This document shows positions 10,566-57,151 of a DNA stretch of 64,000 nucleotides, one piece after another. Each line of letters begins with the position of its first letter. The first letter of the stretch is position 1. The DNA is from Dysidea avara (lineage: Eukaryota; Porifera; Demospongiae; Dictyoceratida; Dysideidae): NCBI RefSeq assembly GCF_963678975.1, contig NC_089274.1, positions 26,325,053 through 26,389,052 on the forward strand. Direction: 5' to 3'. The translations under genes and the position numbers were made by a program. The notes below the pieces were generated by a model. That model did not search any database. It worked only from the letters and a program-made list of their open reading frames with translations, and was not told where the DNA came from.

Positions 10566-10573
10566 TATCAAGA

Positions 10574-11447
10574 CAGTGGCGTAGCCAAACCCGGGCAAGC
10601 CAGGGCATTGCCCGGGCATCAGACTTCTTTGCCCCACCATCAGCTCCTAGAGTAATTATAAAGACGTGGGCTGGATAGCTCGAGATTTTGCTAAAGTTAC
10701 TTAACTAGTCACTGTACAAGAATAAGTATAGCACAACTTATACAACACTCACCGTGCCATTTTCGCCGATGGTTTCCTTTTTTTTGGCTAAACAGAGATG
10801 GGGTTATCCATGGGATTTTCCCTACGAGTAACTTGATTGTGCACAAATAGAGGAGGCAATAAATAGAAGCAAGATCACGTGATTACAAAAAAACCACGCA
10901 GCATTGTGGCAAGGAGTGAAGGACAAAGAATTGGCTTCACTATAGTGGGCTGGACAGTTTACATTTGGATTAAGTGATCACGGTAGCTATTGGTGTGGTA
11001 AAAACTCGGGAGGCAAAGTAGTCTAGAGGTATTTGTGAAATTAGCACCCATCTATCCGTGTGGATACTGCTCAGTTCAAACGGTATGGAGTATTTGTTCA
11101 GTCAGCAATTCTTTTCTTTTTGTTTCCACTTTTCTAGGCTAACAACTGTAGTGGCAGAGCATAGTCATCACGTGATAGAGTGTCTCGTGCTTTAATTCAA
11201 GAATCTTTGTAGTCTGGTATTAAGACACATGTAGCTAGATGTATGTAATATGTTAGAAGGCCAATAGCTAGCTAGGCGTTCGCTTCTATTAGTCATCTTG
11301 CATGCAGTAGTGTAGGATGATACATAATGCATTTTAAAAATGTTATATTGATGTCCATGTGAAGATGGGCATGTGTACGTGTGTTGCATGGGAAATGGCT
11401 TGCCCACCCATTGCCCAGGCATGGCGAAAAGTCTGGCTACGCCACTG
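10574..11447. mobile_element. hAT-like non-autonomous element, 874 bp, with 8 bp duplication
   Basis: Terminal inverted repeats start CAGTGGCGTAGCCA on both ends (right end GGCTACGCCACTG). An exact TATCAAGA duplication lies at 10566-10573 and 11448-11455. An 8 bp duplication with CAGTGGCG-type ends is diagnostic of the hAT superfamily. The interior has no transposase frame. The insertion is in the very terminus of the large composite element, so it is younger than that element. Confidence 0.85.
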
Positions 11448-12270
11448 TATCAAGACACACGGTAGTGTGTCGTGCGGCCCAAGAAGCCGGCGCGCCACAC
11501 CGTGAGTATATTGACAGGAAGAACGAAAACGTCATTTTCACACCTTTGTATCTCGGTGATCACTTATCTGATTGGAACCAAATTTGCTACACAGTTGCCC
11601 GCCAGCCAAGGGAGTCTACATTCCAAATTTGAAGGAAATCGCTCCAGCCATTTCCGAGATACGAGCTGCCAAAGTTTCGTTTTTTTTTTCTTCGTTTTTT
11701 TTTCTTCGTCTTTTCGCACACTTGCAAAAATTGCTATAACAAGCAAACGCGTACTCCGATCGCCTCGAAATTTGGCACACAGAAAGGGAGTCCAAAGGCG
11801 CATCCTAGAATCAAATTTGGTACAAATCCGATGAATGGTTCAGGAGTTATGACCGATTATTCGCGTAAAACAAGATCGATTTGTTGTCACGCCTACAGGG
11901 TAAACCGCTTCATGGAATGAGTTGAAAATTGCTATGTAGATGGACTAACCATCGTAGGAGTGCCTTTTGGTGGTTTGAAAGGAATCGAGATAAAGACCAC
12001 GGAGATATGACACAAAACCCAACCTGTGTCACAATTACGCGATCGATTTTTATGGATAAAAAAGTATTAGTTTTCACGCCTACTAGGCAAACCGCTTAGA
12101 GCAATGAGCTGAAAATCGGTGTATAGCTGGAATAATCTTCATAGAAAGTTCTTGCAGTAGTACAGAAGAATCGGATTACAAACCACTGAGTTATGATTCA
12201 AAAGCCAACTCAGTGTAGCAAATGCGAGATCGAGATACTCTAATAGAACAGTCACCCTAATAGAGCATTC
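11448..12270 (-). repeat. Conserved tail of composite element copy 1
   Basis: The segment is nearly identical, inverted, to 23140-23980 of copy 2 and partly to 55355-57151 of copy 3. It contains two diverged ~180 bp modules, each beginning CACGCCTAC with GTAAACCGCTT or GCAAACCGCTT. Several short blocks around CAAATTTGG also recur. A 120-residue frame is open in copies 1 and 2 but is broken in copy 3 and contains homopolymer T runs, so it is not called a gene. The tail begins with the ACACACGGTAGTGTGT hairpin and ends at the CTATTAG motif (12228-12270). Confidence 0.7.
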
Positions 12271-12349
12271 GGCTAATTTATTTACTCCATTATAGAATTT
12301 TATTACATCACAAGTTATTCTGTAGGGAGTTCAGCTGCAAACAGTTAAT

Positions 12350-15300
12350 CTTATAGACAGTTCAGCAAGAAGACAGTCACCATGTGGAGAGTTAAGCAAA
12401 TATATCACTATAGAGATTCAGAACATTACAAGTAACACTGAAGAAAGTTCAGCTATAAAAAAGTCATGCACTGTGTAGAGAATTCAGCTACAATTAAGTC
12501 ACTCTCTAAAGAATTCAGTTACACAGAATTCAGCTACACACAAGTCACTGTGGAGAGAGTTCAGCTACAAATAAATTACCCTTTAGAGTGATCAGCTACA
12601 AACAAAACACTTTGCAGAGTGTTCAGCTACAGAGTGTTCAGCTACAGAGTGTTCAGCTACAGAGTGTTCAGCTACAACAAATCAACCATTAGAGCGATCA
12701 GCAATGAACAAATCAACACAAATCTACCTGTAGAGAGATAAGCTAGAAACAAATCACCCTGTAGAGAGATCAGCTAAAACAAATCAACCTGCAGTGAGAT
12801 CAAATCACCTTATAGAGAGTTCAGCTACAAACAAATTACCCTGTAGAGAGATTGGCTACAAACAAATCAACCTGTAGAGAGATCAGCTACACACAAATCA
12901 ACTTGTAGAGAGATGAGCTACAAACAAATCACCCTGTAGAGAGATCAGCTAGAAACTACACACAATGTAAGGAGTTCAGCTACAAACAAATCACCCTGTA
13001 GAGAGATCAGCTACAAACTAGACACAAAGTAAGGAGTTCAGCTACAAGTAAATCACCCTGTAGAGAGTTCATCTACAAATAAATCAACCTGTAGAGCAAT
13101 CAGCTAGAAACAAATCACCCTGAAGAGAGGTCAGCTACAAAAAATCACCCTGTAGAGAGATCAGCTAGAAATAAATCACCCTGAAGAGAGTTCAGCAACA
13201 AAGAAACCACCATGTAGAGAGTTCAGCTACAAACAAATTACCCTGTAGAGAGATCGGCTACAAACAAATCAGCCTGTAGAGAGTTCAGCTAAAACAAATC
13301 AACCTGCAGAGAGATCAACTACAAACAAATCACCTTATAGAGAGTTCAGCTACAAACAAATTACCCTATAGAGAGATCGGCTACAAACAAATCAACCTGC
13401 AGAGAGATCAGCTACACACAATTCAACTTGTAGAGAGATCAGCTACAAACAAATCACCCTGTAGAGAGATCAGCTAGAAACTAGACACAATGTAAGGAGT
13501 TCAGCTACAAGCAAATCACCGTGTAGAGAGTTCAGCTACAAACAAACCAACCTGTAGAGCGATCAGCTAGAAACAAATCACCCTGAAGAGAGGTCAGCTA
13601 CAAAAAATCACCCTGTAGAGATATCAGCTAGAAACAAATCACCCTGAAGAGAGGTCAGCTACAAAAAAATCACCCTGTAGAGAGATCAGCTAGAAACAAA
13701 TCACCCTGAAGAGAGGTCAGCTACAAACAAAACACTTTGCAGAGAATTCAGCTACAAACAAATCAGCTTGTAGAGAGATCAGTTACACACAAATCAACCT
13801 GTAGACAGATAAGCTAGAAACAAATCACCCTGTAGAGAGTTCAGCAACAAAGAAACCACCATGTAGAGAGTTCAGCTGCAAACAAATCACCTTATAGAGA
13901 GTTCAGCTACAAACAAATCACCCTGTAGAGAGATCAGCTAGAAACTAGACACTATGTAAGGAGTTCAGCTACAAGCAAATCACCCTTTAGTGAGTTCAGC
14001 TACAAACAAATCAACCTGCAGTGAGATCACCTACAAAAAAGCACCTTGTGCAGAGTTCAGCTACAAACAAATTACCCTGTAGAGAGATCGGCTACAAACA
14101 AATCAACCAGTAGAAAGATCAGCTACACACAAATCAACTTGTAGAGAGATCAGCTACAAACAAATCACCCTGTAGAAAGATCAGCTAGAAACTAGACACA
14201 ATGTAAGGAGTTCAGCTACAAGTAAATCACCCTGTAGAGAGTTCAGCTAAAACAAATCAACTTGCAGAGAGATCAGCTACAAATAAATCACTTTACAGAC
14301 AGTTCAGCTACAAACAAATTACCTTGTAGAGAGATCGGCTGAAAATTAATCAACCTGCAGAGAGATCAGCTACACACAAATCAACTTGTAGAGAGATCAG
14401 CTACAAACAAATCACCCTGTAGAGAGATCAGCTAGAAACTAGATACAATGCAAGGAGTTCAGCTACAAGCAAAATCACCCTTTAGTGAGTTCAGCTACAA
14501 ACAAATCAACCTGCAGTGAGATCACCCACAAAAACGCACTTGTACAGAGTTCAGTTACAAACAAATCACCCTGTAGAGAGATCAGGTAGAAGAATTCACC
14601 TTGTAGAGAGTTCAGCAACAAAGAAACCACCATGTAGAGAGTTCAGCTGCAAACAAATCACCAAGTAGAAAGATCAGCTAGAAGAAGTTACCTTGTAGAG
14701 AGTTCAGTTACAAAGAAACCATTATATAGAGAGTTCAGCTACAAAGGAATTACCCCGTAGAGAGTTCAGCTAGAAGAAGTCACCTTGTAAAGAGTTCAGC
14801 TACAAAGAAACCATCATGTACAGAGTTCAGCTACAAAGAAACCACCTGTACAGAATTCAACTACAAACAAATTACCCTGTATAGAGATCAGCTAGAAGAA
14901 GTTACCTTGTAGATAGTTCAGCTACAACAATTCACCCTGTAGAAAGATCAGCTAGAAGAAGTCACCTTGTAGAGTGTTCAGTTACAAAGAAACCATCATG
15001 TAGAGAGTTCAGCTGCAAACAAATCACTCTGTAGAGAGTTCAGCTACAAAGAAACCGCCATGTAGAGAGTTCAGCCTCATACAAACCACCTTGTAGAGAA
15101 TTCAACTACAACAAATCACCCTGTAGAGAAGAAGTTACCTTGTAGAGAGTTCAGCTACAAAGAAACCATCATGTAGGGAGTTCAGCTACAAAGAAACCAT
15201 CATGTAGAGAGTTTAGCTGCAAACAAATCACCTGTAGAGAGTTCAGCTAGAAACAAATCACCCCGTAGAGAGATCAGCTGGACGAAGTCACCTTGTAGAG

Positions 15301-15655
15301 AGTTCAGCTACAAAGAAACCATCATGTAGAGAGTTCAGCTGCAAACAAATCACCCTGCAGAGAGTTCAGCTACAAAAAAATCACCCTGTAGAGAGTTCAG
15401 CTAGACAAAGTCACCTTATAGAGAATTCAGCTACAAAGAAACCATCATGTAGAGAGTTCGGCTACAAAGACACCACCATGTAGAGAGTTTAGCTGCAAAC
15501 AAATCACCTGTAGAGAGTTCAGCTAGAATCAAAATACCCTATAGAGAGACCAGCTAGAAGAGGTTACCTTGTAGAGAGTTTAGCTACAAAGAAACCATCC
15601 TGTATATAGTTCAGCTACATTTCAAGTCACCCAGTAGAGAGATCAGCTGCAAAAA
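12350..15655. repeat. ~31 bp minisatellite array in element copy 1
   Basis: More than 100 head-to-tail units of the type GTAGAGAGATCAGCTACAAA followed by CAAATCACCCT, alternating with the AGTTCAGCTACAAAGAAACC variant. Units are directly adjacent with no unique spacers. Cassettes containing a marker variant (AACTAGACACAATGTAAGG, for example near 12950, 13480, 14190 and 14435) recur every 240-710 bp. This shows amplification of multi-unit blocks. The same satellite, in opposite orientation, fills copies 2 and 3. Confidence 0.95.
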
Positions 15656-15865
15656 AATATCCTGTTGGGAATAATGGGCATGTAATAAATATATGTATAT
15701 AATTTGTATAATTACTAATAAAATCAAAAATAATTTAAGTACTAAAATTCTTCTTTTAAGTTCTTTTCTTCTTCCTGTAGTAAAGAAAAAAACACATGGG
15801 TTAAAAAAGCCCCAAAGCCAGCCATAGGCCGGCTTTGCAGTATACAAATACAAAAAGAAGTGATA

Positions 15866-16187
15866 TCTAATCAAAAACAGCCAAGCTGTAAAAAAAGGTG
15901 CGGCCCCCAAAAAGGCCATGGTGAAAAAAGATGTGAAATCCAAGGTGGCGGCCAAGAAATGGCTGTGATGGTAGGTTAATGGTTACATTTTAATAATGAC
16001 AATTCAGGTAAATTTGGTGCCGCTTGGTCTTGGCACCAAATTCACCTGAATTGTCGTTATTAAAATGTAACCATTAACCTACCATCACAGCCATTTCTTG
16101 GCCGCCACTTTGGATTTCACATCTTTTTTCACCATGGCCTTTTTGGGGGCCGCACCTTTTTTTACAGCTTGGCTGTTTTTGATTAGA
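15866..16187. repeat. Foldback palindrome of element copy 1
   Basis: Arms of about 150 bp are reverse complements of each other, from TCTAATCAAAAACAGCC to the mirrored GGCTGTTTTTGATTAGA. The centre lies in the TTTGGTGCCGCTTGGTCTTGG region (near 16020-16035). Sub-motifs include AGGTGGCGGCCAAGAAATGG and its complement. Near-identical foldbacks lie at 18535-18855 and 50449-50767. Confidence 0.9.
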
Positions 16188-17285
16188 TATATATAAAGAG
16201 AAGGATATTATTTTGCTATGTATCTGTATTATAGTGGTGCATGTTATTAGTGTATGGTTACCTGCAATGAGAGATAATGTTATCATGAAAGTGTACTGTA
16301 CTCTTGCTATTATTCATCTGGTGCTTATGCAGTTACTGTATGTATGATATGCTCTATGTATGTACATGCATATTCACATATTGTAAAAGGTAAAAAAATC
16401 TTCATTACCAGTGACTATATCATTTATGTAGTAGAGCTTGTAATCTTCTCACTACTAAGTTAATTTACTCTAAAATGCATTTCACCACATTTCACTAGCT
16501 GTTTATCTTGAGGTTTGCATTGAAATGTCACATTTTCTATACAACATGCATGGCATCTACAAATTGACTATATACATATATAGAAAGAATGAAAAATGAT
16601 ATTGCACTGCTAGATAGCTCAATATAACTACCACAGAAATGAATTTCCAGTTGGTGAGGTTATGTAAAAACTAATGTGCATACCAGTGATACCCATGATA
16701 CCATTGAATCACAGTGAACTATAATGATGTACATATTAATAGCCATGTTAGCTTGGCTGAAAAGTTGCAATAAAGATTGGCAACTAAATTCAATAAATAG
16801 TTGAAGTATAAATCTTGATGGACATTTGACATGCCATGGATAAGCAATGTGGCAGTGACAATAAACTTTAATTGAATATTACTGACGTAATTCAGTCTGC
16901 CAAGTTTATTGTATTGTCAGAGTACAATGGAACTAATCATGACCTTTAAATGGACTTGCAGCTATGAATGAGTTATTTTTATGGTAAACTTAAATCCTAT
17001 GAGGCCAAACTTCATGAAAAGTAATTTAATACTATTTTTTAAAAATATAAATCATTTTCATGTAACTGTCATTTTGATATTGCATAGGCTTAACTTTGAG
17101 ATGATTTTATAAGACTTTATACTGGTTCTGTATAGTGATGCAGAAAACATAGAAATGGCAAATTACTATTGCTAAATATCTGTACTATGCATGCCTATAT
17201 ATACAGTATGTTTGCTGCATCACCATGTTTCACCAAATATTCATAAACAGCTTTATAACCCATACAATCACAGTTAAATGATCAT
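16188..17285. other. AT-rich spacer between copy 1 and FReD copy C
   Basis: No gene seen. It separates the end of composite element copy 1 from the promoter of FReD copy C. Confidence 0.5.
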
Positions 17286-17373
17286 TATAAATAGTGTGTT
17301 CACAGATACCTAGATCATTAGCAAGCTTGCAGGCTGAAAGACACTCCTTGTACTCAGTGAATAACTGCAGAGA
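17286..17373 (+). promoter_or_regulatory. Putative core promoter and 5' UTR of FReD copy C
   Basis: TATAAATAG (17286-17294), then TTCACAGATACCTAGATCATTAG and CAAGCTTGCAGGCTGA, precede the ATG at 17374. Copy E (29290-29333) has the same order: TTCACAGCTACCCAGATCAATAG then CAAGCTTGCAGACTGA. This is non-coding conservation between paralogues 12 kb apart. Confidence 0.5.
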
Positions 17374-26922
<9,549 letters not shown>

Positions 26923-28975: not shown

Positions 28976-29377
28976 CATCTCCATGTAACCACTTGCAAAT
29001 TATATCAAATTTGCTACTTGTGTATATGTAGTAATGTCCTATATGACTTTCTGATAAACTGATAAAATTTATAATTTATGTTGGAATAGTAGCTAATATC
29101 ATTTGGCAGTCAATTACAACTCGCAAAAAAATTATTATGCAAAATTCTTCTTTATGGCTGAACGTTTACTATTGTATAGCTATAGTTACATACTGGTCTT
29201 TTTGCATGTTTGTGCATTACCATGTATGCATGTACATATGTAACTAACTAAGTATTCATAACCTATATAATCACAACTAACTGGTCAGATTTTCACAGCT
29301 ACCCAGATCAATAGCTAGCAAGCTTGCAGACTGAATATAGTGAAAGTTATTCATTGTGTAGAGCAAGCAATTGCAGC

Positions 29378-30519
29378 ATGAAGTTGAGTTTGATAATCAG
29401 TCTTTCTCTGAACCTATCATTACTGGTGGTTGTGAGGTATGTGCTTTTGCTTGTCATTGATTGTATAGGCTCTGTTTGGAGTACATATATAGCAATATAT
29501 GTTATTCTTATAGTTCTTCTCATCTCAATGCCACTGAGAAGTTGATTGTCAAGGTACAGTGAATGACTATTTTAGCAGTATATTACGCATGTGTACTATT
29601 ACACAGAGGCAGGCTACAGGCCCACCAACTACAACATGTGATAGATCAAGTGAGGACTCTAGTGAGTTTAATCCTGTGACACCTGACACAGTATGGATCT
29701 GCAAGAGTGGTGAATGGATTCCCTACCAGTAAGTAATATCTCAGCACCTCTAATGGCATTGTGATAAATTTGAGCTTGCATGTAATTAGTTTGTAATTGG
29801 CACTGTATGTAGTATTGAGCCATCATTGGGAAGGATCAGATCACTCAGTGCTAATTCATGTAAACACATCAGAGAAGTTGTAGCAACTAATTGTAGTGGA
29901 GTGTACTGGGTACAGGACATGCAGGTACTCAATGAGTTAGTACATGTATACATGTAAGGCATAAGTTTCTGTTATACATATGTAGGTATACTGTGACATG
30001 ACAACTGATGGTGGAGGATGGACACTTGTATGGCAACACTCCTACATGGAAACATCACCTCTCTCCACTAACATGTACTACTTCTCAGATTACTACAAGG
30101 CCTGTGCTACCTATGCTAGTGGATGGTGTAATATACTCAATAAGAAATGTTTCAATCCAACAGAACAAATGATTGTAGCCTACCACCAAGGAACCATTTA
30201 TTACTCATATAAAGGAGTGTTCAATTATAATATAGACCATGACTGGACTGGTAGAGTGTTAGTGGACTTTAAGAAAATTGTTGACAGATGTACTCATAGT
30301 GGAAGTCCAGATGTCCAACCGGCACCATCAGCTCATGGAGGAGATTCTGCTCTGCTGGGAATAGCTTTTGATAAACGAAGTTCGTATAACTACAAGGGCA
30401 ATTATGATACAATTCAAGGAAGTTTTAATGCACCATGTGATTGCCGATTTTCTGTTTGCTACCTTGCATCTACCGGACTACGTGGTATTCAGCAAACCGT
30501 CGCCATTTATGTCCGCTAA
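29378..30519 (+). CDS. Secreted FReD-like protein, copy E (5 exons, 288 aa)
   Basis: Exons are 29378-29436, 29514-29553, 29607-29728, 29813-29924 and 29986-30519, totalling 867 nt with GT-AG boundaries and the family phases. The signal peptide is MKLSLIISLSLNLSLLVVV. Exon 4 lacks five codons (equivalent of TNLPN) relative to B and C but stays in frame. Exon 5 has VYCDMTTDGGGWTLVW and ends QQTVAIYVR. Several normally invariant positions differ: NILNKKCF for NIPNKKRF, DWTGRVLVDF for DWTGGVLVDF, and CRFSVC for CRW(Y/H)DC. These suggest relaxed or changed constraint. The same secreted recognition role is inferred for the family. It lies directly downstream of pseudogene D. Its promoter shares the CACAG-TACC-AGATCA-TAG block with copy C but no obvious TATA box. 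Confidence 0.8.
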
Positions 30520-37319: not shown

Positions 37320-37327
37320 CACGTATG

Positions 37328-38680: not shown

Positions 38681-38758
38681 ATGTCAAAACTTTACTCTAT
38701 AAAAGCCAGCTTTACTGTTGTAGTTCACAGCTCACAGTCCAACTTAGTAGTTACTAAA

Positions 38759-40600: not shown

Positions 40601-40604
40601 GCAT

Positions 40605-42940
40605 AACATCATTGCAGCCATTTGTTCTTTGCTGCCACCTTTGATTTCACAACCTTTTCCACCCAGGCTTTTGAAGGCCACACCCTTTTCAAGAGCGACT
40701 CCAGGAATTTTGGTGACAGATTTCCAAATTTTCTCACTTAAATATAGCTGGGTCTAGGGGCATGCTCTCCCAGGAAACTTTTGAAAATGTTGAGATTGAA
40801 TCTGGTAACAATTTTCACCAAAAAATCTTTAAAGCTGATGTTTTAAATATATGTTAGGAATTGCGATACAGGCTGCTGGTGATTGTTTCTACCAGCATAG
40901 CATCAGGATCAGGCTAAACATAAAACTATGTTGGTCTGGGAGCATGCCCCCAAGGAAATTCTTCAGATATTAAACACTCTGAGATACAATTGTTACAGGC
41001 AAACAACGTAACTTCAAAATGTGATTTTTCTATTAGGGTAGCTGACTGCTCTATTAGAGTATTCCATCTGAACCTTTGATACCTTTGAAAATCAATGTAT
41101 AATCAATTCTAATGAACTGAATATACTTCACCAGTTTCTGGAAACCTCAGAAATCCTGTTCCTGCTTTTTACAGCTTAGCTGTTTTTGCATAGTTATATT
41201 ATAACAATTGCTAATAATATCAGTCAGATCACCACAAAATAATTTTAAGCAAGTTTAAAGATGACCAAAATAAAGTGTAGGTCATCTACAGTATACCTGT
41301 ACAGCATACTATAGTGCCACCCAAAGATTGCAGATCTGCATGGATGTTTGCATTATATCGATCAGTATAATTATGAAGATAATCTTTGCTGCATACCTCA
41401 AGATATCATAATATTATGAATGCAGCCATGTACTGCCAGTTGAAGTATATATGTACACTACAAGTCCATGCATGATGCATAGGATATTTCAAAGGTGATT
41501 TCTAGGTGTCACAAAAGCAGGGTCGCTGTCCCCAGTTGCTGATTATGAGATTCTTTCAATAAATTTAGTACAGATTAATGATTCCAACTATTTTCAGCAA
41601 ATAGCTAGTAACCATTAAGTCCCTTTACTTATACTAGTGGTCATGCATGAGGTAAATAGTGACAGTGTTAGTGGATCATATCTAGATCACGTAACTGGAA
41701 ATAGAAATCTATTGTACCAAGCTGTGATAAAAGGGTGTGGCCTCAAAAAGACCAGGAAAAGTTGTATAATCAATGTTAGCAGCCAATATGCCAATTGTTT
41801 TAATGATCACACATTATGTTAGTAATGTCACATTTACTGACTGCATGACTGACTGACAGACAGACAGACAGACTGACAGACTGACTGGTCCTACACATGA
41901 AGTCTATAATAAGTACACAAATGTTTGCATCAAAATTACCTACACATAGAGTACCGGCAGCTTTTCAATACATGAATGGACTAACAGTAAGAGCCATTGA
42001 TAATCAGAATCCTTTCTGTTGACATTCTTATGGCCACTGACACTATAAGTCTTTTGGCTTACTGGTCAAATTGTAGGTATATTATATTGTATTATTGTAT
42101 TGTTTGCTTTTTTTGAGAACTATTAATATAAATGAATGTGACCAGATTTTTGACCATTCAAGGGATCTTCCACCATACATCCACTGAATTCAGTCAGGGG
42201 TAGATCTAGGGGTGTTTAAACTGGTCAAGTATATTCAAGCAGTTAATTGATTTGCAAAGGTTCAGATTGAAATACTCTAATAGAGCATGCAGTCAACTAC
42301 CCTAATAGAACAGTCACATTTTTGCATTATTATTATTTAGTTACCTCTACCAACACAGTAAAAATCACATCTCAGAGTACCTGAATTTTTTCTAGGAGTA
42401 TGCCCTCAGACCCCCAGAATGGCATCCATATTTGTTGTACATTTGTTTCAAACTCAGCTTGCTCCTGATACAATGCCAGCAGAAACAAACAAGCCTACAT
42501 TAATACTGTCAGTTTTAAAGATTGAAATTGTTACTGACAAATTTGGTAATTAAACACCAGAGGCAGCGATCCTACTACACTGGCATTCACCGATATACTA
42601 GTATTTCACCGATATACTGGTATTTTGATAGTTTTCAAAAATTTCCTTGGGAAGCATGCCCCCAGACCACCCTAGATTTAAGTGTGCATGCAACAACAAA
42701 AAATTTGGACAGCTGTCACCAAACTTTCTGGAGCCGTCTTTGATTCTATATAGCTATAAAGATAACTTTGTTCAAATATATGTAAGCCAGATATATGTTC
42801 AGTGATGTTGCAAATCTCTTCTTACCAAATTTGAAGCCATTAACCATTTTTTCAGTCTTTAGTTATGAATCGTGGTAGCTATGTTGATAGCATGTGGGAG
42901 ACTACTTTTCGCAAATCTGGCCACATATAAATTTTAAAAA
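40605..42940. repeat. Cluster of decayed DNA-element remnants
   Basis: It starts with a foldback arm fragment (GCAGCCATTTGTTCTTTGCTGC, 40614-40640). Several copies of a GGCATGC(T/C)C-CCAGGAAA block follow (about 40758, 40938, 42395 and 42650), often followed by a GAGATTGAAT-type segment. CTATTAG motifs lie at 41028-41070 and 42270-42315. A CAGGGGTAGATCTAGGGG hAT-like end lies at 42196. A GGCCACAT/TTTTCGCAAAT remnant at 42905-42930 resembles the end of the 243 bp MITE at 50939. No gene was recognised. Confidence 0.5.
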
Positions 42941-43052
42941 TTAAAGCACAATCTAAATTGTATTTGTAATTTAGCTAAATATATGCATGTAGTTACTAGT
43001 ATCATGTGTATAATTTACTTAACAGCCTATAATATCAATACAAAACTATATA

Positions 43053-45915: not shown

Positions 45916-46236
45916 ACTCTCTCACACACACACACAGACTCTTTGCATTGTGATTTAGTTCAAATGACATTTGAAGCAGTTGATTATATTTATTGTCATG
46001 CAAATATTTTTGGTAGATCTTAAACCACTAATTTCCTGTTATCAAATAGTCGCATAACAACAGTGTTACAATAATTTGATCAGGGCATATAACTGTACTG
46101 AAGGTGCTCAGAATCTGAAAAAGGTGTACGCGTATGGAGAATTATCATGTAGCAATGTAATCAATATTTTAAAAATGTTTATATTATTTTGAATAGACAC
46201 TGATCAAATTATTTATGAATCAATGACAACACTCAT

Positions 46237-46554
46237 CTATGTGATTAGAAGCAGGTACCCAAGCAAGCATGTAAATAATTCCATTTTAACGCCTGAAGAG
46301 TTTAAGAATATTATATTTAATTCGTTATGAGGAGCCATGTATATACCAAGTACTGTGAATGTAAAAACTCCCTGGGAAAGTACCATTACTATTACTACAG
46401 TTGGTCTACCACATACCACAAATTGCATTACCAAAATTTTCACACAATGCTGATAAAAGCCTCTCCTGCAGTTTAGGTCACGCCTATATGTGCAGCAGGT
46501 TGTAGTCAAATAGGTAAAAGATGAAAACATGAGATGATATGAAAACAACAACAA
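46237..46554 (-). other. Unassigned hydrophobic open frame, 105 codons
   Basis: The frame encodes Cys-rich and hydrophobic segments (VVIVMVLSQGVFTFTVLGIYM) and lies on the same strand upstream of the membrane-protein gene. It could be a fragment of a related membrane-protein exon. No splice link or family match can be seen, and composition alone could explain it. Confidence 0.15.
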
Positions 46555-46585
46555 AGTTAAAAAAGAATATATTTCACAGCTGTTA

Positions 46586-46763
46586 AAGTGGAACCCCTCT
46601 TAAAGGACACCTCTGAATTGAGGACAGCCTCTAAATAAAGGACACATGTCTAGGTCCCAAATCAATAGTACCAGTGCTTTATGAACTCCTGAATAAAGGA
46701 CACCTCTTTATGAAGGACAAGAATAAATTCCCCAGTGGTGTCCATCTTAGAGGGGTTCCACTG
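46586..46763. mobile_element. Tc1/mariner-type MITE, 178 bp
   Basis: Ends AAGTGGAACCCCTCTTAAAG and (reverse complement) CAGTGGAACCCCTCTAAGAT are inverted repeats flanked by TA on both sides. Internal AAAGGACACCTCT blocks repeat in both orientations. AGTGGAACC ends with TA duplication are common among pogo/Tc1-like MITEs. It has no coding capacity. Confidence 0.6.
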
Positions 46764-47017
46764 TATTATAGGTGTGATTGAAGTCATGAGAAAAACTGTT
46801 AGTGATTGGTTTTGCTTTGAATGGCTGTTACAATCCACTGTGGAACAGCAGATCTCTTAACTATAAAATATGTAGTATCATTATATATATTGATTTGTAT
46901 AGTGCAGCTTATGGCTACCACAGGAACAGACATCAAGTAATTGTGAGTTATAATTCAGAAAGAACTGTTCATGTACAAGTTCAACCAGATCTAGCTATCA
47001 CAGATACTATAGTGCAG

Positions 47018-47257
47018 TAACACTCATACATGGAAACATCTCCCCTCTCCACTAACATGTCTGTACTACTTCTCAGATTACTACAAGGCCTGTGCTACCT
47101 ATGCTAGTGGATGGTGTAATATACCCAATAAGAAACGGTTCAATCCAACAGAACAAATGACTGTAGCCCACCACCAGGGAACCATTGTCTGAGCATAAAA
47201 AGGAGTGTTCAACTATAACATAGACCATGACTGGACTGGTGGAGTGTTGTGTTGCTG
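47018..47257 (+). pseudogene. FReD-like fragment F
   Basis: Matches the first half of exon 5 of the FReD family, from CACTCATACATGGAAACATC through GGACTGGTGGAGTGTTG. It carries a small insertion (ATGTCTGTACTAC), a TGA stop where the others read TAT/TAC, and then abrupt loss of similarity. It lacks the GGGWTLVW start and all upstream exons. It lies 16 kb beyond the rest of the cluster, so the family once extended or dispersed further. Confidence 0.85.
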
Positions 47258-48083
47258 GAAATCTAACACATTCAGCTGGAACCATATTTAGTGGAACCTG
47301 ATAGGGCTGAACATTTGTGCTATCCCCTTTCATGATTGTAGGATGCAACATATCACGATTATGATAACTATTGTAATGTTATAGTATGCACAGCTTTGAA
47401 AGAATTATTTAGCAATACAAATTGTATACTGATCAACACACTTAAGGTCATAGGCAGCCACATGCAGTTTAATACAAACAGCATTATGAATAATACTATC
47501 CTTAGAAATTCAGTGGTTTCTAACAGATAAGATTTATTCACACAATGAACTGTATCAGGCTTGTTTTCCGGATCATGTTCTTCCACAGCATTATGAACCA
47601 TTTTGAATTTACTAAGATACATTTGTACCGCAACATCACGATTATTTATAATACATATCAACATCACGATGTTCAGATACAATCTCCCGGCCCTAACCTA
47701 GAACCTGATAGTGCTCTTAATGACGACATACACCTTTATACATAATCCAGGCACTTAATGCTTTAGGTCCCAAAGGATAATACAGTTATCCTGTGACTAC
47801 ATAGAAGAATCCATGACAGCTTTGTTTGATACCTTCAAGATTTACCATGAACACCAGTGGTATTTGTGAGAGTTCCACTAGCCTTCCTTCCAGTGTGCTG
47901 CACAAGTGTGTTACAGTGTATTACAAACCATGTCTTTTGACAATGTCATTAAAAATTAATGCTTACATAGCTATTACTTGTTTTATCTGCCACATCATCC
48001 TTTACTGATGCACACATGACTATCTGAAGTGCAAGAGTACTGTAATTTTTATTACCAATCACCAAAAGTTCCAAATAAGCCAA
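47258..48083. other. Intergenic, no recognised gene
   Basis: A minus-strand frame of 104 codons (47368-47682) has one hydrophobic stretch but no recognisable family or splice partner. Otherwise the region is AT-rich DNA. Confidence 0.35.
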
Positions 48084-49773
48084 TTAATCACCGGACGGTG
48101 GAGTTACTTGTCTAATCTGATGAATACCAATATATTTGGTAGTTTTTGGTCTACGAGCAGTGTGCTTGTTCTTCACGTTAATATCCTTGCCCGATTTAGT
48201 TCTCATCCATCCATCATGCAGTAAGTCACTAAATGATACTGGTAAGGAGCACAAGTATGAGATGAGATGGGGTGGGAGTGGTAGCTCTTTAATTCTTCTG
48301 CGCCGAGCCACACCCATCTGTCTCCTAATAGCTAATCGACACAAATGTTGCAGAGAAAACACACCTAAGAAATTAAAACAAAGAAGTATCATAAAACATG
48401 GAGTTTTACAAAAGAGGTATTACATTAAGTTGTGCATGAGTAATACATTGCAATTTTTTATCACTCACATCATAAAACAGTTCAACTTTGATGAATACAC
48501 TATCAATGGAGTTTTGATTATATAAAAATTCAATTGCAATGGTGAGGCCATGCCAAATTATTTTTTAAAGCTTTTATCCCTTTAAAAGATGCCTGCTCCT
48601 GTATATCTGAGTTGGAGGCCTACAATAATACTTGAAAAAAGAAATTAAACAGTTCACTACAAGTCTTTTTTTCTTTGATTTAACAAGTAAACATTATTGT
48701 ATGGAAATTGCCAGCATTTGCCTGTAGTCATTGTTTCCATCTACCGTCTGTGATGCTGGATACTAGAGTTATATACTCTAGTAAAACAGTCAGATGCAGC
48801 TAAAATGAATTTTTAATTGTATACTTTCCCCCAACCATTGTTAGAGGCAAACAATGATGTCAATCCATTTGGTATGTGCCTTTATTTAGAATTCAATGTC
48901 AATCTATCAAGATCTGCTGTGATATGCTTGAGGGGTCATGCATTGGTTGTCCTATACCATGATCTGGCCTACTCCAAGGGTCACATTAATTCTGGCAGCC
49001 TTGCTGTTCAGCACTTTGACAGCCAGTGCTGAGGGGGTAATGAGGAATATATATATATATAGCACTAATCTCTCAGCAGTGTTTGTGCAGTAGTCTCGCA
49101 CGGCCAGACCACTTTTTCTCAGCACGGTACTTATCGATTAGAACTATAAGCGCCTACTCAAAAAAGGATCTGGTCCAGAAATAATAATTATACCAACTCG
49201 TTTTCACACCCTGAGCAAGAGCTCGGGGTGTGAAAACGAGTTGGCATGTTGATTCTGGATCAGACCCTTTTTCGAGCAGGCACTTATAATTCTAATCGAA
49301 AAGTGCCATACTGGTCTGGCCACACAAGACTACTTGTGTATAAGTACTGGTCACTCACTATCTCCAGCCTTCTCCAGGATTGCATGACATTTTGGAACTG
49401 ATTCAGATAGTTCTAGAGGGGACAAGTGACCCACTGTGCCTTCAGGATTGTATGGGCTTGCTCCATAACACAGTAATAGCTCCACACACTGCAATCTCCC
49501 GTATACTACAGCCTGGTATAACGGAGATACAAAGTCATTGTCTTTAACATTCACGTCAGCTCCTGAATCCAGTAATAGTAGCATCACGTGCACGTCTCCA
49601 GCCACTGCAGAAATGTGTAGAGGTGTTTGCTGCCAAATATTTAAGGTCGATGTACTGGAACCTTGAAGTAGGAGCATCAGAACGCGATCATAGTCTACCT
49701 TCGAGCACGCCTCATGTAGGGGTGTGTTTCCTTGAGATTCGAGTTTCTTTCCGCTGGCCATGTCAATGTCCAA
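48084..49773 (-). CDS. Ankyrin-repeat and SOCS-box protein (ASB-like), 2 exons, 231 aa
   Basis: Exon 1 is 49773-49359 and ends at a GTGAGT donor (phase 1). Exon 2 is 48364-48084, after a TTTCTTAG acceptor. The join is in frame for 696 nt. Exon 1 encodes three to four ankyrin repeats (GNTPLHEACSKVDYDRVLML, QTPLHISAVAGDVHVMLLLL, then SPLYQAVVYGRLQCVELLL). Exon 2 starts with a SOCS box: SLQHLCRLAIRRQMG, then IKELPLPPHLISYL. In ASB proteins the SOCS box binds elongin B/C and cullin 5 to form an E3 ubiquitin ligase, with ankyrin repeats choosing the substrate. That role is inferred from the family. A basic tail of about 50 residues follows the box, longer than in most ASBs. Without splicing, exon 1 alone would end two codons later and lose the box. 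The intron holds a foldback MITE. Confidence 0.8.
49089..49334. repeat. Foldback MITE in the ASB-like intron
   Basis: Left AGTAGTCTCGCACGGCCAGACC and right GGTCTGGCCACACAAGACTACT are inverted. The arms continue inward through TTATAATTCTAATCGA and end in an inner palindrome around GAGCAAGAGCTC with flanking CTCGTTTTCACACC and GGTGTGAAAACGAG. The total is 246 bp, almost entirely self-complementary. Confidence 0.85.
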
Positions 49774-50448
49774 TTACACAATGGGGCGATTCTTTCAGCA
49801 AAATAATATTTCTAAAAATAGTTTCCCACAATAGGAATATTTTGCAATTTATCACGTGCGCACAATGTGTATGCTTTATTAGAGTATTTACGCTGATCTC
49901 TTACCATCCCAAAGGCTTCCTAATTTATTCTGCCATGAATTTTGGATGCGCTGTATTTTGCATATCTGTTGTTCCAGGTTCGGTTGGAAAGGAATTGAAA
50001 CACAAACTATGGCATGCAATAAATCCATCTCATGCTATAAATACATGTACTCCCATACCATTGATTGTAATTATTGTATACCTGTATGCAGTCATACTCG
50101 AATAAAATAAAATCATGTACATGGCACAGAGAGGGTAACAAGGGGAAATCATCTAATAGAGTAGTCAAAAGTACTCTATTAAATGATTAGAACAGTCATA
50201 GCATAAAAGGTATGAATTACATTAGCGAACTGCACTTGGAACCCTAATCTCTTCAGTTACAATAGAAATTTCAGCTACACTATATACATCAACAGAGTAT
50301 TTGTTAGGAGTGATAAAAGCCTGAAACTATATACCACTATTCCAATATATGGGTGCTTCGCACCAATTATGTTATCTCTGATTTCAATGATTACATTTTG
50401 AAAGTGAGATTTTAGCTTCTGAACACATTAGAGCCCTTGTAAAGTATA
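49774..50448. other. 5' flank of the ASB-like gene
   Basis: Presumed promoter region of the minus-strand ASB-like gene on its left part, AT-rich. A CTATTAG motif pair lies at 50152-50200. No gene seen; a plus-strand frame overlapping the ASB exon is a shadow. Confidence 0.4.
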
Positions 50449-50767
50449 TCTAATCCAAAACAGCCAAGCTGTAAAAAAAGTGTGCGGCCCTCAGAAAGGC
50501 CATGGTGAAAAAAGATGTGAAATCCAAGGTGGCGGCCAAGAAATGGCTGTGATGGTAGGTTAATAGTAAAAATTTTAATAACGACAATTCAGGTGAATTT
50601 TTGTGTCGCTTCACAAAATTTACCTAAATTGTCATTATTAAAATTTTTACCATTAACCTACCATCACAGCCATTTCTTGGCCGCCACCTTGGATTTCACA
50701 TCTTTTTTCACCATGGCCTTTCTGAGGGCCGCACACTTTTTTTACAGCTTGGCTGTTTTGGATTAGA
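50449..50767. repeat. Foldback palindrome of element copy 3
   Basis: Arms of about 150 bp run from TCTAATCCAAAACAGCC to the mirrored GGCTGTTTTGGATTAGA, with a loop around TTTGTGTCGCTTCACAAAA. Nearly identical to the foldbacks at 15866 and 18535. Confidence 0.9.
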
Positions 50768-50938
50768 TTTCATTTCTTTTTGTATTTGTATATACCCCAA
50801 AGCCGGCCTATAGCCAGCTTTGGGACTTTTTTAACCTATGTTTTTTTCTTTACTACAGGAAGAAGAAGAAAAGATGAAGTAGATGTACTTTAAATATTTT
50901 ATCAGTAAATGTACAAATTATATATACTGTATAATACA

Positions 50939-51181
50939 TATGTGACCGGATTTGCGAAAAGGGGTCTTCCACACACATCCAATTTGCCAACTTTGACAAT
51001 TGATAACTTCAGATTGGAAAGAGCTATTGCCTTGAATTTTGGACAGTGGTGAGCACCACTATAGCTGAATACGTGGTGAAAGTTTCAGGTTAATATGTTA
51101 CTTGAACACTGAGTTATGGTCTCCAACGGTTACGGAATTGGATGTGTGTGGAAGACCCCTTTTCGCAAGTCCGGTCACATA
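50939..51181. mobile_element. 243 bp MITE with long inverted ends, inside copy 3
   Basis: TATGTGACCGGATTTGCGAA, continuing AAGGGGTCTTCCACACACATCC, is mirrored at the right end as GGATGTGTGTGGAAGACCCC then TTTTCGCAAGTCCGGTCACATA. Copy 2 holds only the left 110 bp, directly fused to the satellite, and copy 1 lacks it. This gives relative ages for the three large elements. Confidence 0.8.
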
Positions 51182-51204
51182 ATATTATATAGTTTACAGA
51201 AATC

Positions 51205-54200
51205 TCCATGGTGGTTTCTTTGTAACTGAACACTCTACAAGGTGACTTCTTCTAATTGCTCTCTCTACAGGGTGAATTGTTTGTAGCTGAACGATCTACA
51301 AGGTAACTTCTTGTAGCTGATCTCTCTACATGGTGATGTGTTTGTAGCTGAATTCTGTATAGGTGATTTGTTTGCAGCTGAGCTCTTTACAGAATGGTTT
51401 CTTTGTAGCTGAACTCTCTAAAAGGTAACTTCTTCTAACTGATCTTTCTACAGGGCAATTTGTTTCTGGCAGAATTTTCTACAGGGTGATTTCTTTGCAG
51501 CTGAACTCTCTACATGGTGGTTTCTTTGTAGCTGAACTCTCTACAAGGTAATTTCTTCTAGCTGATCTCTCTACAGGGAGATTTGTTTGTAGCTGAACTA
51601 TCTACAAGGTAACTTCTTATAGCTGATCTCTCTACAGGGTGATTTGTTCGTAGTTAAATTCCGTACAGGTGATTTGTTTGCAGCTGAGCTCTTTACAAAA
51701 TGGTTTCTTTGTAGCTGAACTTTCTCCAAGGTAACTTCTTCTAACTGATCTTTCTACAGGGTGATTTGTTTGTAGCTGAACTATCTACAAGGTAATTTCT
51801 TCTAGCTGATCTCTCTACAGGGTGATTTGTTTGTAGCTGAATTCTGTACAAGTGATTTTTTTGCAGCTGAGCTCTTTACAGAATGGTTTCTTTGTAGCTG
51901 AACTCTCTACAGGGTGATTTGTTTGTAGCTGAAATCCCTACAAGGTAACTTCTTCTAGCTGATCTTTCTACAGGGCGATTTGTTTGTAGCTGAGTTCTCT
52001 ACAGGGTGTTTGTTTGCAGCTGAATTCTCTACATGGTGGTTTCTTTATAGCTGAACTCTCTACAAGGTAACTTCTTCTAGCTGATCTCTCTACAGGGTGA
52101 TTTGTTTGAAGCTGAACTCTTTACAGGTGATTTGTTTGTAGCTGAACTCTCTACAAGGCGATACTTCTAGGTGATCTCTCTACAGGATTCCTTGTTTCTA
52201 ACTGAACTCTCAACAGGGTGATCTGCTCATAGCTGAACTTTCTACTGGGTGATTTGTTTGCAGCTGAACTCTCTAAATGGTGGTTTCTTTGTAGCTGAAC
52301 TCTCTACAACGTGACTTCTTCTAGCTGAACTCTCTACAAGGTGACTTGTTTCTAGCTGATCTCTCTACAGGGTGACTTGTTTCTAGCTGAACTCTCTACA
52401 GGTGATTCGTTTGTAGCTGAACTCTCTACATGGTGGTTTCGTTGTAGCTGAACTCTCTACAAGATAACTTCTTCTAGCTGATCTCTCTACAGGGTGACTT
52501 GTTTCTAGCTGAACTCTCTACAGGTGATTTGTTTGTAGCTGAACTCTCTACATGGTGGTTTCGTTGTAGCTGAACTCTCTACAAGATAACTTCTTCTAGC
52601 TGATCTTTTTACACTGCATATTTGTTTGTAGCTGAGTTCTCTACAGGGTGATTTGTTTGCAGCTGAACTCTCTACATGGGAGTTTCATTGTAGCTGAACT
52701 CTCTACAATGTGACTTCTTCTAGCTGAACTCTCTACAGGGTGACTTGTTTCTAGCTGAACTCTCTATAGGTGATGTGTTTGCAGCTGAACTCTCTACATG
52801 GTGGTTACTTTGTAGCTGAACTCTCTACAAGGTAACTTCTTCTAGCCGATCTTTCTACAAGGTGATTGAGTTTTTTGCAGCTGAACTCTTCACATGGTGG
52901 TTGCTTTGTAGCTGAACTCTCTAAAAGGTGACTTCTTCTAGCTGAACTCTCTACAGGATGATTTGTTTGCAGCTGAACTCTCTACATGGTAGTTTCTTTG
53001 TAGCTGAACTCTCTACAATGTGACTTCTTCTAGCTGAACTCTCTACAGGGTGACTTGTTTTTAGCTGATCTCTCTACAGGGTGACTTGTTTCTAGCTGAA
53101 CTCTCTACAGGTGATTTGTTTGCAGCTGAACTCTCTACATGGTGGTTTCTTTGTAGCTGAACTCTCTACAAGGTAACTTCTTCTAGCTGATCTTTCTACA
53201 GGGTGATTTGTTTGTAGCTGAATTCTCTACAGGGTGATTTATTTGCGGCTTAACTCTCTACAAGGTGACTTCTTCTAGCTGAACTCTCTACAGAGTGATT
53301 GATTTTTTTTGCAGCTGAACTCTCTACATGGTGGTTTCTTTGTAACTGAACTCTCTACAGGGTGATTTGTTTGTAGCTGAACTCTCTACAGGGTGATTTG
53401 TTTGTAGCTGAACTCTCTACAGGGTGATCTGTTCATAGCTGAACTCCCTATAAGGTAACTTCTTCTAGCTAATCTTTCTACAGGGCGATTTGTTTGTAGC
53501 TGAGTTCTCTACAGGGTGATTTGTTTGCAGCTGAACTCTACATGGTAGTTTCTTTGTAGCTCTACAGTGTGACTTCTTCTAGCTGAACTCTCTACAAGGT
53601 GACTTGTTTCTAGCTGATCTCTCTACAGGGTGACTTGTTTCTAGCTGAACTCTCTACAGGTGATTTGTTTGCAGCTGAACTCTCTACATGGTTTATTTCT
53701 TTGTAACTGAACTCCCTGCAAGGTGACTTCTTCTAGCTGATCTCTCTACAGGGAGATTTGTTTGTAGCTTAACTCTCTACAGGTGATTTGTTTGCAGCTG
53801 AACTCTCTACATGATGGTTTCTTTGTAGCTGAACTCTCTACAAGGTAATTTCTTCTAGCTGACCTCTCTACAGGCCGATTTGTTTGTAGCTAAACTCTCT
53901 ACATGATGGTTTCTTTGTAGCTGAACTCTCTACAAGGTGATTTATTCTATAGCTGATCTTTCTACAGGGTGATTTGTTTGTAGTTGAACTCTCTACATGA
54001 TAGTTTCTTTGTAGCTGAACTCTCTACAAGATGATTTTTTCTATAGCTGATCTTTCTACAGGGTGATTTGTTTGTACCTGAACTATCTACATGATGGTTT
54101 CTTTGTAGCTGAACTCTCTACAAGGTAACTTCTTCTAGCTGATCTCTCTACAGGACAATTTGTTTGTACCTGAACTCTCACATGATTGCTTCTTTGAAGC

Positions 54201-55330
54201 TGAACTCTCTACAAGGTCATTTCTTCTAGCTGACCTCTCTACAGGCCGATTTGTTTGTAGCTAAACTCTCTACATGATGGTTTCTTTGTAGCTGAACTCT
54301 CTACAAGGTGATTTATTCTATAGCTGATCTTTCTACAGGGTGATTTGTTTGTAGTTGAACTCTCTACATGATAGTTTCTTTGTAGCTGAACTCTCTACAA
54401 GATGATTTTTTCTATAGCTGATCTTTCTACAGGGTGATTTGTTTGTACCTGAACTATCTACATGATGGTTTCTTTGTAGCTGAACTCTCTACAAGGTAAC
54501 TTCTTCTAGCTGATCTCTCTACAGGACAATTTGTTTGTACCTGAACTCTCACATGATTGCTTCTTTGAAGCTGAACTCTCTACAAGGTGATTTCTTCTAG
54601 CTGATCTTTCTACAGGGTGATTTGTTTGTAGCAGAACTCTCTACAAGGAAACTTCTTCTGGCTGATCTCTCTACAGGGAGATTTGTTTGTAGCTGAACTC
54701 TCTATACATGATTTGTTTGCGGCTGAATTCTCTACATGATGGTTTCTTTGTAGCTGAACTCTCTACAAGGTAACTTCTTCTAACTGATCTCTCTACTGGG
54801 TGATTTGTCTGTAGCTGAACTCTCTACAAGGAAACCTCTTTTATAGAGCTCTGTACAGGGTGAATTGTTTGTAGCTGAACTATCTACAAGGTAACTTCTT
54901 CTAGCTGATCTCTCTACAGGATGATTTGTTTGTAGCTGAACTATCTACAAGGTAACTTCTTCTAGCTGATCTCTCTACAGGGTGATTTGTTTGTAGCTGA
55001 ATTCTGTATAGGTGATTTGTTTGCAGCTGAGCTCTTTACAGAATGGTTTCTTTGTAGCTGAACTCTCTACAAGGTAACTTCTTCTAGCTGATGTATCTAC
55101 AGGGTCACTAGTTTGTAGCTGAATTCTCTACATGGTGGTTTCTTTGTAACTGAACTATCTATAAGGTGACATCTTCTAGCTGATCTTTCAACAGGGTGAT
55201 TTGTTTGTAACTGAACTCTCTACAAGAAAACTTCTTCTAACTGATGTCTGAACAGGGTGAATTGTTTGTAGCTGAACTCTCTACAGGGTGATTTGTTTGT
55301 AGCTGATCTCTATACAGGTTACTTATTTCT
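51205..55330. repeat. ~31 bp minisatellite array in element copy 3
   Basis: Same unit family as copies 1 and 2. A higher-order duplication of about 370 bp is clear: the block starting GCTGACCTCTCTACAGGCCG near 53857 recurs near 54229, including the unusual TTATTCTATAGCTGATC variant. Several shorter block repeats occur near 52380/52500. Confidence 0.95.
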
Positions 55331-55915
55331 AACTGATCTCTTGAATTCTGTTCAGGGTGACTGCTCTATTAGGATGACTGCTCTATTAGAGTATCTCGAT
55401 CTCGCACTTGCTACACCAAGTTGGATTTCGTGTTATAACTCCGTGGCTTTAAGTCTGATTTTTCTACACCATTGAAGAGCCTTTCTAAGATGATAACTCC
55501 ATCTGTACAGCGATTTTCAAAGCATTACCCCAAGTGGTTTATCTGGTAGGCGTGGCAAGCATAATAATAATAATAATAATAATAAAAATTAGCTAATCTC
55601 GATTGCGTAATTGTTACACACTGTTGATTTTTTCGCTGTATCTTCCTGGTTTTTAGCTCGATTTCTTTCAAACCACAAAAGGTTTGAGGTTCAATAGTTA
55701 ACCTATTCACCCACCGATTTTCAGCTTCTTCCCATACGCGGTTTACCCTGTAGGCGTGACAACATATTGGTGTTATTTTTCGTGCATAATCGCTCATAAC
55801 TCTTTGCCTGTTTATGGTATTCCAGCCAAAGTTGGTACAGAGATGCGCCTTTATACCCCCCTTCTGTGTGCCAAATTTCAAGGCAATCGGATAACGAGTT
55901 CGCGTTTTATAGCAG

Positions 55916-56852
55916 TAGGCATTCCAGACTGATCTTAAAATTTTGGAAAAACGGGCTTTTTATATGCTCAATAGATAGAGTATTGATTGCTGATCTCAGA
56001 AATATATAGTTTGTCGGGTTGGAATTAGCTACTTTGGCATGCACAGTGCTTAAAAACTGAAAAAGGGTACATTTTTCTCCAGGGCTCCTCATACATTTTA
56101 CAGGGGAAAATGGCACAATTGAATCAGGAAGCCATCTAGCAATCTGGACTATCTTGAAACTGCAGTTGCTTCTAGCTGCAAGTTTGTACATGTAATGAGA
56201 GTAACTTCAGGTCTTATCGGATCTCAGCGATCTTTGTATGCTTTGTGGTGAGCAAATATGTTTCACCTACTGCACACTTCTCAATACAATGGTGTATGCC
56301 CATAGGTAAGTGGCTATCTCAAGTTGGTAAAAACATCAAGTTAGCAACTTATAAAGGTAAACAACTAAAGTGGAGGAGCCACAATGATGCAACAATACCT
56401 AAGGTGGAGTTGTGGTTTCAATTATGGCATTGTTATGCCGACTTTGAAGTGGTTTATACTTTTGAGCTGATGACACAACCATCAGAAAATTGCTCTGGAG
56501 CTGAAAATCGCTAACTCAAGCGAAGTAACTACGCACTTTAAAGTAAGCACCAGTGACTACCTTCCACCCGACCGTACGTTTTTTAAAGTTTTAAAGTATT
56601 CTACATACATTACAAGGTTTGAAAAGATTACAAAACAACACAAAACTTACTTATATGTAATGCGCACGATAAAACTAAGATTTTCATGATGATCAGCGTG
56701 TGGACAAACCCCACAGCGATTTTCACCCTCATTGGAGCTCGGACGACGGAGCAATCCCAAGTTAAACACGAGTTGTCATTTTGTGCCAGGGCTCTATTGG
56801 GGAATATACGGAGAATTTTTTTATTAAAAAATCTCGGATACTGGAATGCCTA
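55916..56852. mobile_element. 937 bp element with TAGGCATTCCAG ends and a 7 bp duplication
   Basis: Perfect 12 bp inverted ends TAGGCATTCCAG (55916-55927) and CTGGAATGCCTA (56841-56852), flanked by ATAGCAG on both sides (55909-55915 and 56853-56859). Comparison with copies 1 and 2, which lack it, confirms a clean insertion in the tail of copy 3. A 7 bp duplication fits neither hAT (8) nor Tc1 (2) well. No transposase is visible, so the superfamily is open. Confidence 0.75.
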
Positions 56853-57151
56853 ATAGCAGTTTTTGTAAGTGTGCGAAAAGAGGAAGAAAAATAAGAAGAA
56901 AAAAAATGAAGAAACTAAGCCAATTTTTGAAGTCGCATATCTCAGGAATGCCTGAAGCGATTTCGCTCAAATTTGGAATGTGGAGTACTGAAGTTGGAGG
57001 GAATGTACACAGCAAAATTTGTCTTGTTTCATCAAGGCAGCACAGAGCTACGGAGGTGCGAAAATTGCGTTTTCTTTCTTCCTGTCAATATACTCACGGG
57101 GTTGCGCGCCGGCTTCTTGGGCCGCACGACACACTACCGTGTGTCTTGATA

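Follow-up and report, generated by a model that had tools for sequence, protein, structure and literature searches.

Canonical Helitrons (Helibat/Helraiser and their non-autonomous relatives) begin with 5′-TC, end in CTRR, carry a 3′ hairpin of 16 to 20 nt about 11 nt before the end, and insert between A and T without duplicating the target. Helentrons and HINEs, in contrast, favor sites that are TT or rich in T (PMC4067079, PMC7492417). In this study, we analyzed a 64,000-nt stretch of DNA from the sponge Dysidea avara (RefSeq assembly GCF_963678975.1, contig NC_089274.1, positions 26,325,053 to 26,389,052, forward strand; hereafter the window), part of a genome whose 108 contigs total 550.8 Mb. 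The window holds three copies of a composite element made of a 5′ terminal foldback, an array of 31-bp minisatellite units, and a tail with a 3′ hairpin. We conclude that this element very probably represents a family of non-autonomous, rolling-circle, Helitron-like transposons. The original prediction, made from the window alone, had noticed the three copies and likened them to HINE/pearl-type elements; its observation is confirmed here with corrections, and its interpretation as a whole is partly supported.

A composite element that moves as one unit

As first described, the three copies share their ends and internal order, each starting with TCTAATC and containing the foldback and a 31-bp array. 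For comparison with them, 20 of about 40 listed foldback places in the genome were fetched, and 20 full elements were defined (21 before L018, whose 3′ end lies on the opposite strand from its foldback, was left out). The boundaries of the element (marked ^) fall at 5′-A^TCTAATC and, directly after the hairpin GACACAC-TACC-GTGTGTC, at TTGA^T-3′. Each of 30 starts is preceded by A (a 31st row is without the first arm), as are 5 of 5 starts fetched later, and TC opens the element in 29 of the 30, with L026 starting TG. On the other side, 27 of 29 3′ ends retain CTTGAT, after which the next base is variable; of the remaining two, one reads CTTGG^T and one has the altered form CTCA^G. These observations set the 3′ boundary at TTGA^T and make A^T the target. 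The CTTGATA proposed as terminus is present where it was reported, but because the base after CTTGAT varies, the element itself stops at CTTGA and the final TA belongs to the host. The A and T flanks seen in the window thus extend to the family at large, and among the full elements A precedes the start in 20 of 20 and T follows the 3′ end in 19 of 20, L027 being the exception. An alternative end at CTTG, with one A duplicated on insertion, looks identical and is indistinguishable from insertion into AT without duplication.

The 18-nt hairpin (−9.0 kcal/mol with RNA parameters) lies 4 nt from the 3′ end. A 24-nt form of this end has 3 matches in the window compared to 0 in 100 shuffles, and its exact 19-nt form occurs 6,934 times in the genome (3,432 + 3,502; reversed control, 0), counts that together exclude chance for the 3′ end. 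Full elements (n = 20) span 2,650 to 6,701 bp with a mean of 4,245 bp; at this mean length and 6,934 ends, the family could amount to about 5% of the genome, an extrapolation in which some of the 3′ ends are truncated or tandem copies. Each full element has 36 to 133 hits of the 31-bp unit, and the array takes up roughly half to four fifths of its length. Array bounds in the window copies come from the program TRF and unit hits were counted separately, the share by unit hits for copy 3 (84%) being inflated by stray hits where TRF gives 61%. Consensus and divergence of the 31-bp units were set aside, since units that differ in length blur both.

The pairing of foldback and tail is hardly due to chance. 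Where 7 kb or more beyond the foldback is covered, a same-strand 3′ end lies no more than 7 kb downstream in 18 of 18 cases (two foldbacks in L025 share one end), a cut-off that we chose and that compares with full elements reaching 6.7 kb. The other 14 of the 32 foldbacks examined have less than 7 kb covered, with a 3′ end inside the covered stretch in 3 and none in 11. The composite element is real, and its parts move together. Between copies 1 and 2, the tails are 98% identical and the foldbacks are of different types, and therefore parts have been exchanged between lineages.

Probable rolling-circle marks and Helitron transposase genes of the genome

Joined flanks of the full elements were compared with the fetched sequence, and paralogous empty sites were found for 4 of the 20 (copy 2, L023, L019, and L011). 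In these, the target is neither duplicated nor lost, in agreement with the lack of a clear target-site duplication noted in the window, and three of the four elements read A^T. The empty site of copy 2 (L020:3299-3598) aligns over 300 of 300 bp, ungapped, at 89.7%; that of L023 has 19 matches, 8 of them among the matches listed, that of L019 has 8, and L011 has two weak ones (76 to 77%). L012 and L027 were discounted as empty sites, as they match only themselves or the next tandem element, and copy 1 stood outside the proper test, its flank having been taken at a nested insert. Two outcomes had been named in the original prediction as refuting it, a target-site duplication at empty sites and the independent occurrence of foldback and tail; the first is absent at the four elements with an empty site, and the second is absent among the 18 foldbacks with 7 kb or more covered.

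Further marks come from the ends themselves. Exact head-to-tail junctions, CCGTGTGTCTTGA^TCTAATCCAAAAC, occur 63 times (32 + 31; control, 0), compared to about 0.95 expected at random, a rough figure based on 6,934 insertions over about 50 million AT sites estimated from the window and one that an AT-rich target preference may raise somewhat. In L015 (4390-4648), the last 62 to 75 bp are repeated three more times in tandem, each repeat closing in CTTGA^T. By analogy with Helraiser, the mechanism model for circles and repeated 3′ stops (PMC4778049), the junctions and the L015 repeats would fit either of these events; a possible other account of both is an insertion preference for existing ends.

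Intact Helitron transposase genes are present. The genome holds 150 scored matches to Helitron_like_N out of 230 candidates, many of them in open frames of more than 1,000 amino acids (aa), and the motif QKRGLPHxH is present in 14 of 14 Rep loci examined, which correspond to 12 distinct genes. By the rule given in PMC4067079, this GLP motif is the Helitron form and not the Helentron form. Two open Helitron Rep/helicase frames are L042 643-5481 (1,613 aa) and L041 1020-5801 (1,594 aa); near-identical Rep copies occur elsewhere (97 to 99% in several pairs), and this sequence likeness suggests recent activity. Taken together, the empty sites, the thousands of 3′ ends, the tandem junctions, and the Helitron transposase genes support both the idea of a rolling-circle element and that of a mobile source of tandem repeats.

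The autonomous Rep/helicase partner with the same termini that the original prediction envisaged was not found among 16 distinct Rep genes within the stretches covered (3.5-kb loci at 12 genes, 10 kb at two of those, and 2.5 kb downstream of four others), where only weak end matches with 4 to 6 edits appear; the search is incomplete and does not exclude a partner genome-wide. The partner listing took in 100 of the 6,934 3′ ends, and a partner sharing the whole tail may escape it. Genome scans for 3′ ends with unlike upstream sequence returned 23, 50, and 4 places; by eye, the first 23 are mostly indel variants of the family, and so are the 50 of the second scan apart from a minority of single foreign upstreams. 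No Rep gene lies near any coordinate of the three scans (judged by eye against the Helitron_like_N loci), which by our own estimate pass ∼18%, 32%, and 32% of unrelated upstream sequence, so that a rare partner could slip through. One of the two open Rep/helicase frames in L042 and L041 has a candidate 3′ end with the hairpin CGCGCATTTTGCGCG followed by CTAG^T; candidate CTAG ends come from a scan that requires CT-type endings and are not independent evidence. Among the first 80 matches listed between Rep loci and elements, only short repeats are held in common, including a palindromic insert of ∼245 bp. This insert stands just ahead of the array in the window (50938-51181 and 19016-19118) and also downstream of an intact Helitron gene (L042 6975-7218 and 9599-9838).

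We propose that a Helitron transposase, which joins an HUH nuclease to a helicase and is encoded at another place in the genome, would nick at A^TCTAATC, after which one strand would be peeled off, halted at the 3′ hairpin, and cut after TTGA. The released strand, probably circular, would then enter an AT dinucleotide and leave this target unduplicated, and the 31-bp array would be carried along as cargo. We infer mobilization by the Rep genes of the genome, as well as the strand chemistry and the circle.

The 5′ palindrome and the three window copies

The foldback, originally described as perfect over ∼320 bp, has the size claimed (319 to 322 nt in the three window copies) and is near-perfect, with an arm identity of 92.9 to 100% across 29 copies. 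The consensus of these 29 foldbacks pairs over 158 bp. Of 4,546 foldback cells, 4,318 hold the consensus pair, 44 hold G-T, 133 are broken, and 51, distributed over 23 of the 158 pairs, hold a Watson-Crick pair altered on both sides (counts without a shuffle control). Arms are 96.9% alike within a copy compared to 95.3% for an arm against the opposite arms of other copies, a small difference.

Each of the three loop types includes copies with either orientation of the palindrome center (S, 6 and 7 copies; L, 9 and 4; X, 3 and 1), with 30 of 34 copies classed and 4 ambiguous ones left out. All 81 opposite-orientation pairs are more alike with one member turned over (means of 0.895, 0.888, and 0.945 compared to 0.822, 0.806, and 0.861), and turned-over pairs are about as alike as pairs inside the plus groups (0.910, 0.880, and 0.923). 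This result arises partly by construction, the classes being set by the loop itself, and its independent part is that linked arm bases turn along with the center. The pattern had already been noticed when five of the 34 copies were fetched, and these five again comprise both orientations, 2 of them being inverted. A tree of the tails, which has 5 orientation changes, was not used as a count of flips because parts have been exchanged between lineages.

Template switching between the arms of inverted repeats leads to both arm homogenization and spacer inversion (PMC8604942). Since it yields both outcomes, no special mechanism is needed: most simply, DNA polymerase switching templates between the arms would keep them alike and flip the center. 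A more intricate account is that the transposase makes the flip, the HUH nuclease nicking at either foot of the palindrome and the end being copied and turned over during transposition. In parvoviruses, terminal resolution turns the end over in a comparable way, by a nick and copying of the hairpin. If true, the element would unite two features, rolling-circle transposition and a flip/flop terminal hairpin like that of parvoviruses, and would maintain both the alike arms and the two orientations of the center. The presence of both orientations in all three loop types agrees with such a flip, as does the fact that both hairpin feet carry A^TCTAATC on opposite strands (the lower strand of the inner foot reading GAAATGAAA^TCTAATCC or nearly so). 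However, a start at this foot would yield a foldback joined to a foreign flank, which is seen in 0 of 33 judgeable foldback matches, and template switching is already known to produce the same two outcomes (PMC8604942), so we consider a flip made by the transposase very unlikely.

The features of the window copies are collected in Table 1. Copy 1 measures 5620 bp with a nested insert of 874 bp and an extra 8-bp duplication, and 4738 bp without both. This insert, which we take to be hAT-like, splits the 3′ end of the copy, and its duplication spans the last six bases of copy 1 and two host bases; it is for this reason that the hairpin lies far from the end at 10568. The coordinate first given for this end, 10566, is right to within two host bases, but the hairpin is not adjacent to it.

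Table 1. Features of the element family in the window (positions counted from the first base of the window; ^ marks an element boundary)
Feature	Positions	Strand	Remarks
Copy 1, whole element	10568..16187	-	A^TCTAATC at 16187, CTTGA^T at 10568
Copy 1, 5′ terminal foldback	15866..16187	-	Loop type L, center inverted (L-)
Copy 1, 31-bp minisatellite array	12479..15665	-	TRF; 110 unit hits
Copy 1, 3′ hairpin	11454..11471	-	GACACAC-TACC-GTGTGTC
Nested insert at the very end of copy 1	10574..11447	-	874 bp; inverted ends CAGTGGCGTAGCCA/TGGCTACGCCACTG; 8-bp duplication TCTTGATA
Copy 2, whole element	18535..23978	+	5444 bp
Copy 2, 5′ foldback	18535..18855	+	Loop type S+ (GTGAAGCGGCAC)
Copy 2, 31-bp array	19121..22898	+	TRF; 130 unit hits
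Copy 2, 3′ hairpin	23957..23974	+	TTGA at 23975-23978 next, then host T
Copy 3, whole element	50449..57149	+	6701 bp including nested insert
Copy 3, 5′ foldback	50449..50767	+	Loop type S, center inverted (S-)
Copy 3, 31-bp array	51203..55318	+	TRF; 133 unit hits over the whole element
Unrelated element inside the tail of copy 3	55916..56852	+	937 bp; 12-bp inverted ends TAGGCATTCCAG/CTGGAATGCCTA; 7-bp duplication ATAGCAG
Copy 3, 3′ hairpin	57128..57145	+	TTGA at 57146-57149 next, then host T
Decayed foldback relative	2351..2550	+	Traces of the sequence that normally follows the foldback

A further decayed foldback remnant lies at 41164-41184, and together with the relative at 2351-2550 it suggests older waves of the element family in the window. 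None of the nine open frames of at least 150 aa in the window lies inside the three copies, and four reading frames taken from the tails have no Pfam match. Outside the copies, four similar reading frames of ∼180 aa stand in a row (3239-3790, 9657-10190, 26374-26922, and 29986-30519) and form a local gene cluster; the two of them that were tested have no Pfam match.

Placement among known elements

Several observations weigh against a Helitron-like origin of the family: (i) the final four bases are TTGA in 27 of 29 ends and not CTRR; (ii) the hairpin stands 4 nt before the end and not about 11 nt; (iii) a terminal palindrome of ∼319 nt is not described for Helitrons in the parts of the literature consulted; (iv) five of the 11 foldbacks with no 3′ end in their covered stretch have as much as 4.4 to 6.2 kb covered, a length that full elements (up to 6.7 kb) can exceed; (v) a one-base gap lies at the junction in 2 of the 8 matches to the L019 empty site, and the 5′ base in the two empty sites of L011 is C instead of A; (vi) none of the 16 distinct Rep genes has the ends of the family within the stretches covered; and (vii) the 20 full elements were taken from the top of the similarity list, which leaves older or deviant copies under-sampled. 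The absence of CTRR had been recognized from the start and is milder than it then seemed, as TTGA has the form TTRR. CTRR is nevertheless a defining feature of Helitrons, and the family lies outside them in the strict sense; because CTRR is missing and a partner with the same ends was not found, we name it Helitron-like and non-autonomous.

The likeness to Helentron-derived HINE, DINE-1, or pearl-type elements put forward in the original prediction holds for the general order of the parts, in which a module of inverted repeats at the 5′ side is followed by tandem repeats in the middle and a hairpin at the 3′ side (PMC4067079, PMC7492417). It might extend to a 9-bp subterminal inverted repeat, GTGCGGCCC/GGGCCGCAC, which lies 34 to 42 nt from the 5′ end and 23 to 31 nt from the 3′ end in 3 of 4 elements tested (in the fourth, its 5′ copy is shifted inward by 4 nt). 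Yet a repeat of this kind is near chance (about 0.06 by our own estimate), the target in the elements examined is AT, as for canonical Helitrons, and not TT, the ends are without a variable T run, and the 12 distinct Rep genes have the GLP motif typical of Helitrons, all of which makes a HINE origin quite improbable.

It is, in our judgment, very unlikely that the inverted repeat has been misread and belongs to a DNA transposon of the cut-and-paste or foldback type (foldback elements, Tetris, MITE, or ATon). A long inverted repeat does exist, and ATon elements insert at AT with inverted ends and no known transposase (PMC3422177), but here no inverted repeat joins the two ends, the 5′ end reading TCTAATCC and the 3′ end, read backwards, TCAAGACA. 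The foldback is moreover one-ended, with the same sequence following on one side in 33 of 34 matches (by eye; the last is cut by the end of its stretch), the empty sites are free of duplication, and the tandem repetition in L015 affects the 3′ end only. A chance neighborhood of separate repeats, namely the array and either end, is hardly credible, given that a same-strand 3′ end accompanies every one of the 18 foldbacks with 7 kb or more covered and that the whole unit is missing at once from the empty sites, even though tails and foldbacks of different subfamilies have been reshuffled (copies 1 and 2) and the five foldbacks of point (iv) show no tail.

No element of such anatomy was found in the titles and abstracts of the library searched. 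Read as a Helitron-like transposon, the family suggests that the extreme 5′ end of an AT-inserting element of this kind, which the transposase must recognize, can be a stem of ∼160 bp. The family spreads kilobases of minisatellite to thousands of sites, and it offers many natural copies in which to study the reading of the 5′ end, the multiplication of the 3′ end, and the homogenization and inversion of a palindrome.

These features place the family at different distances from the systems described so far. The foldback transposons FB and Tetris are bounded by inverted repeats on either side and duplicate their target; they share long inverted repeats and internal tandem repeats with our family, whose foldback is found at one end only and is unaccompanied by a target duplication. 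With ATon of Aedes aegypti, the family shares the A and T flanks, the non-autonomous state, and the unknown transposase, but ATon elements are short and have terminal inverted repeats that join both ends (PMC3422177), of which there are none here. HINE, DINE-1, pearl, and Cg_HINE share the 5′ inverted-repeat module, the central tandem repeats, the hairpin near the 3′ end, and the satellite-like dispersal of repeats; their subterminal inverted repeats measure 11 to 15 bp, whereas the palindrome arms here are about ten times longer, and in place of TT or T-rich sites the family uses AT and carries a 31-bp unit with 36 to 133 hits per element. With canonical Helitrons it has in common 5′-TC, insertion between A and T without duplication, a hairpin close to the 3′ end, numerous non-autonomous copies, and head-to-tail junctions, in a genome that contains intact Helitron-type Rep genes. 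It differs from them in ending with TTGA instead of CTRR, in an 18-nt hairpin that stands closer to the end, in a palindrome of ∼319 nt that forms the 5′ end, and in a minisatellite that makes up half or more of the element.

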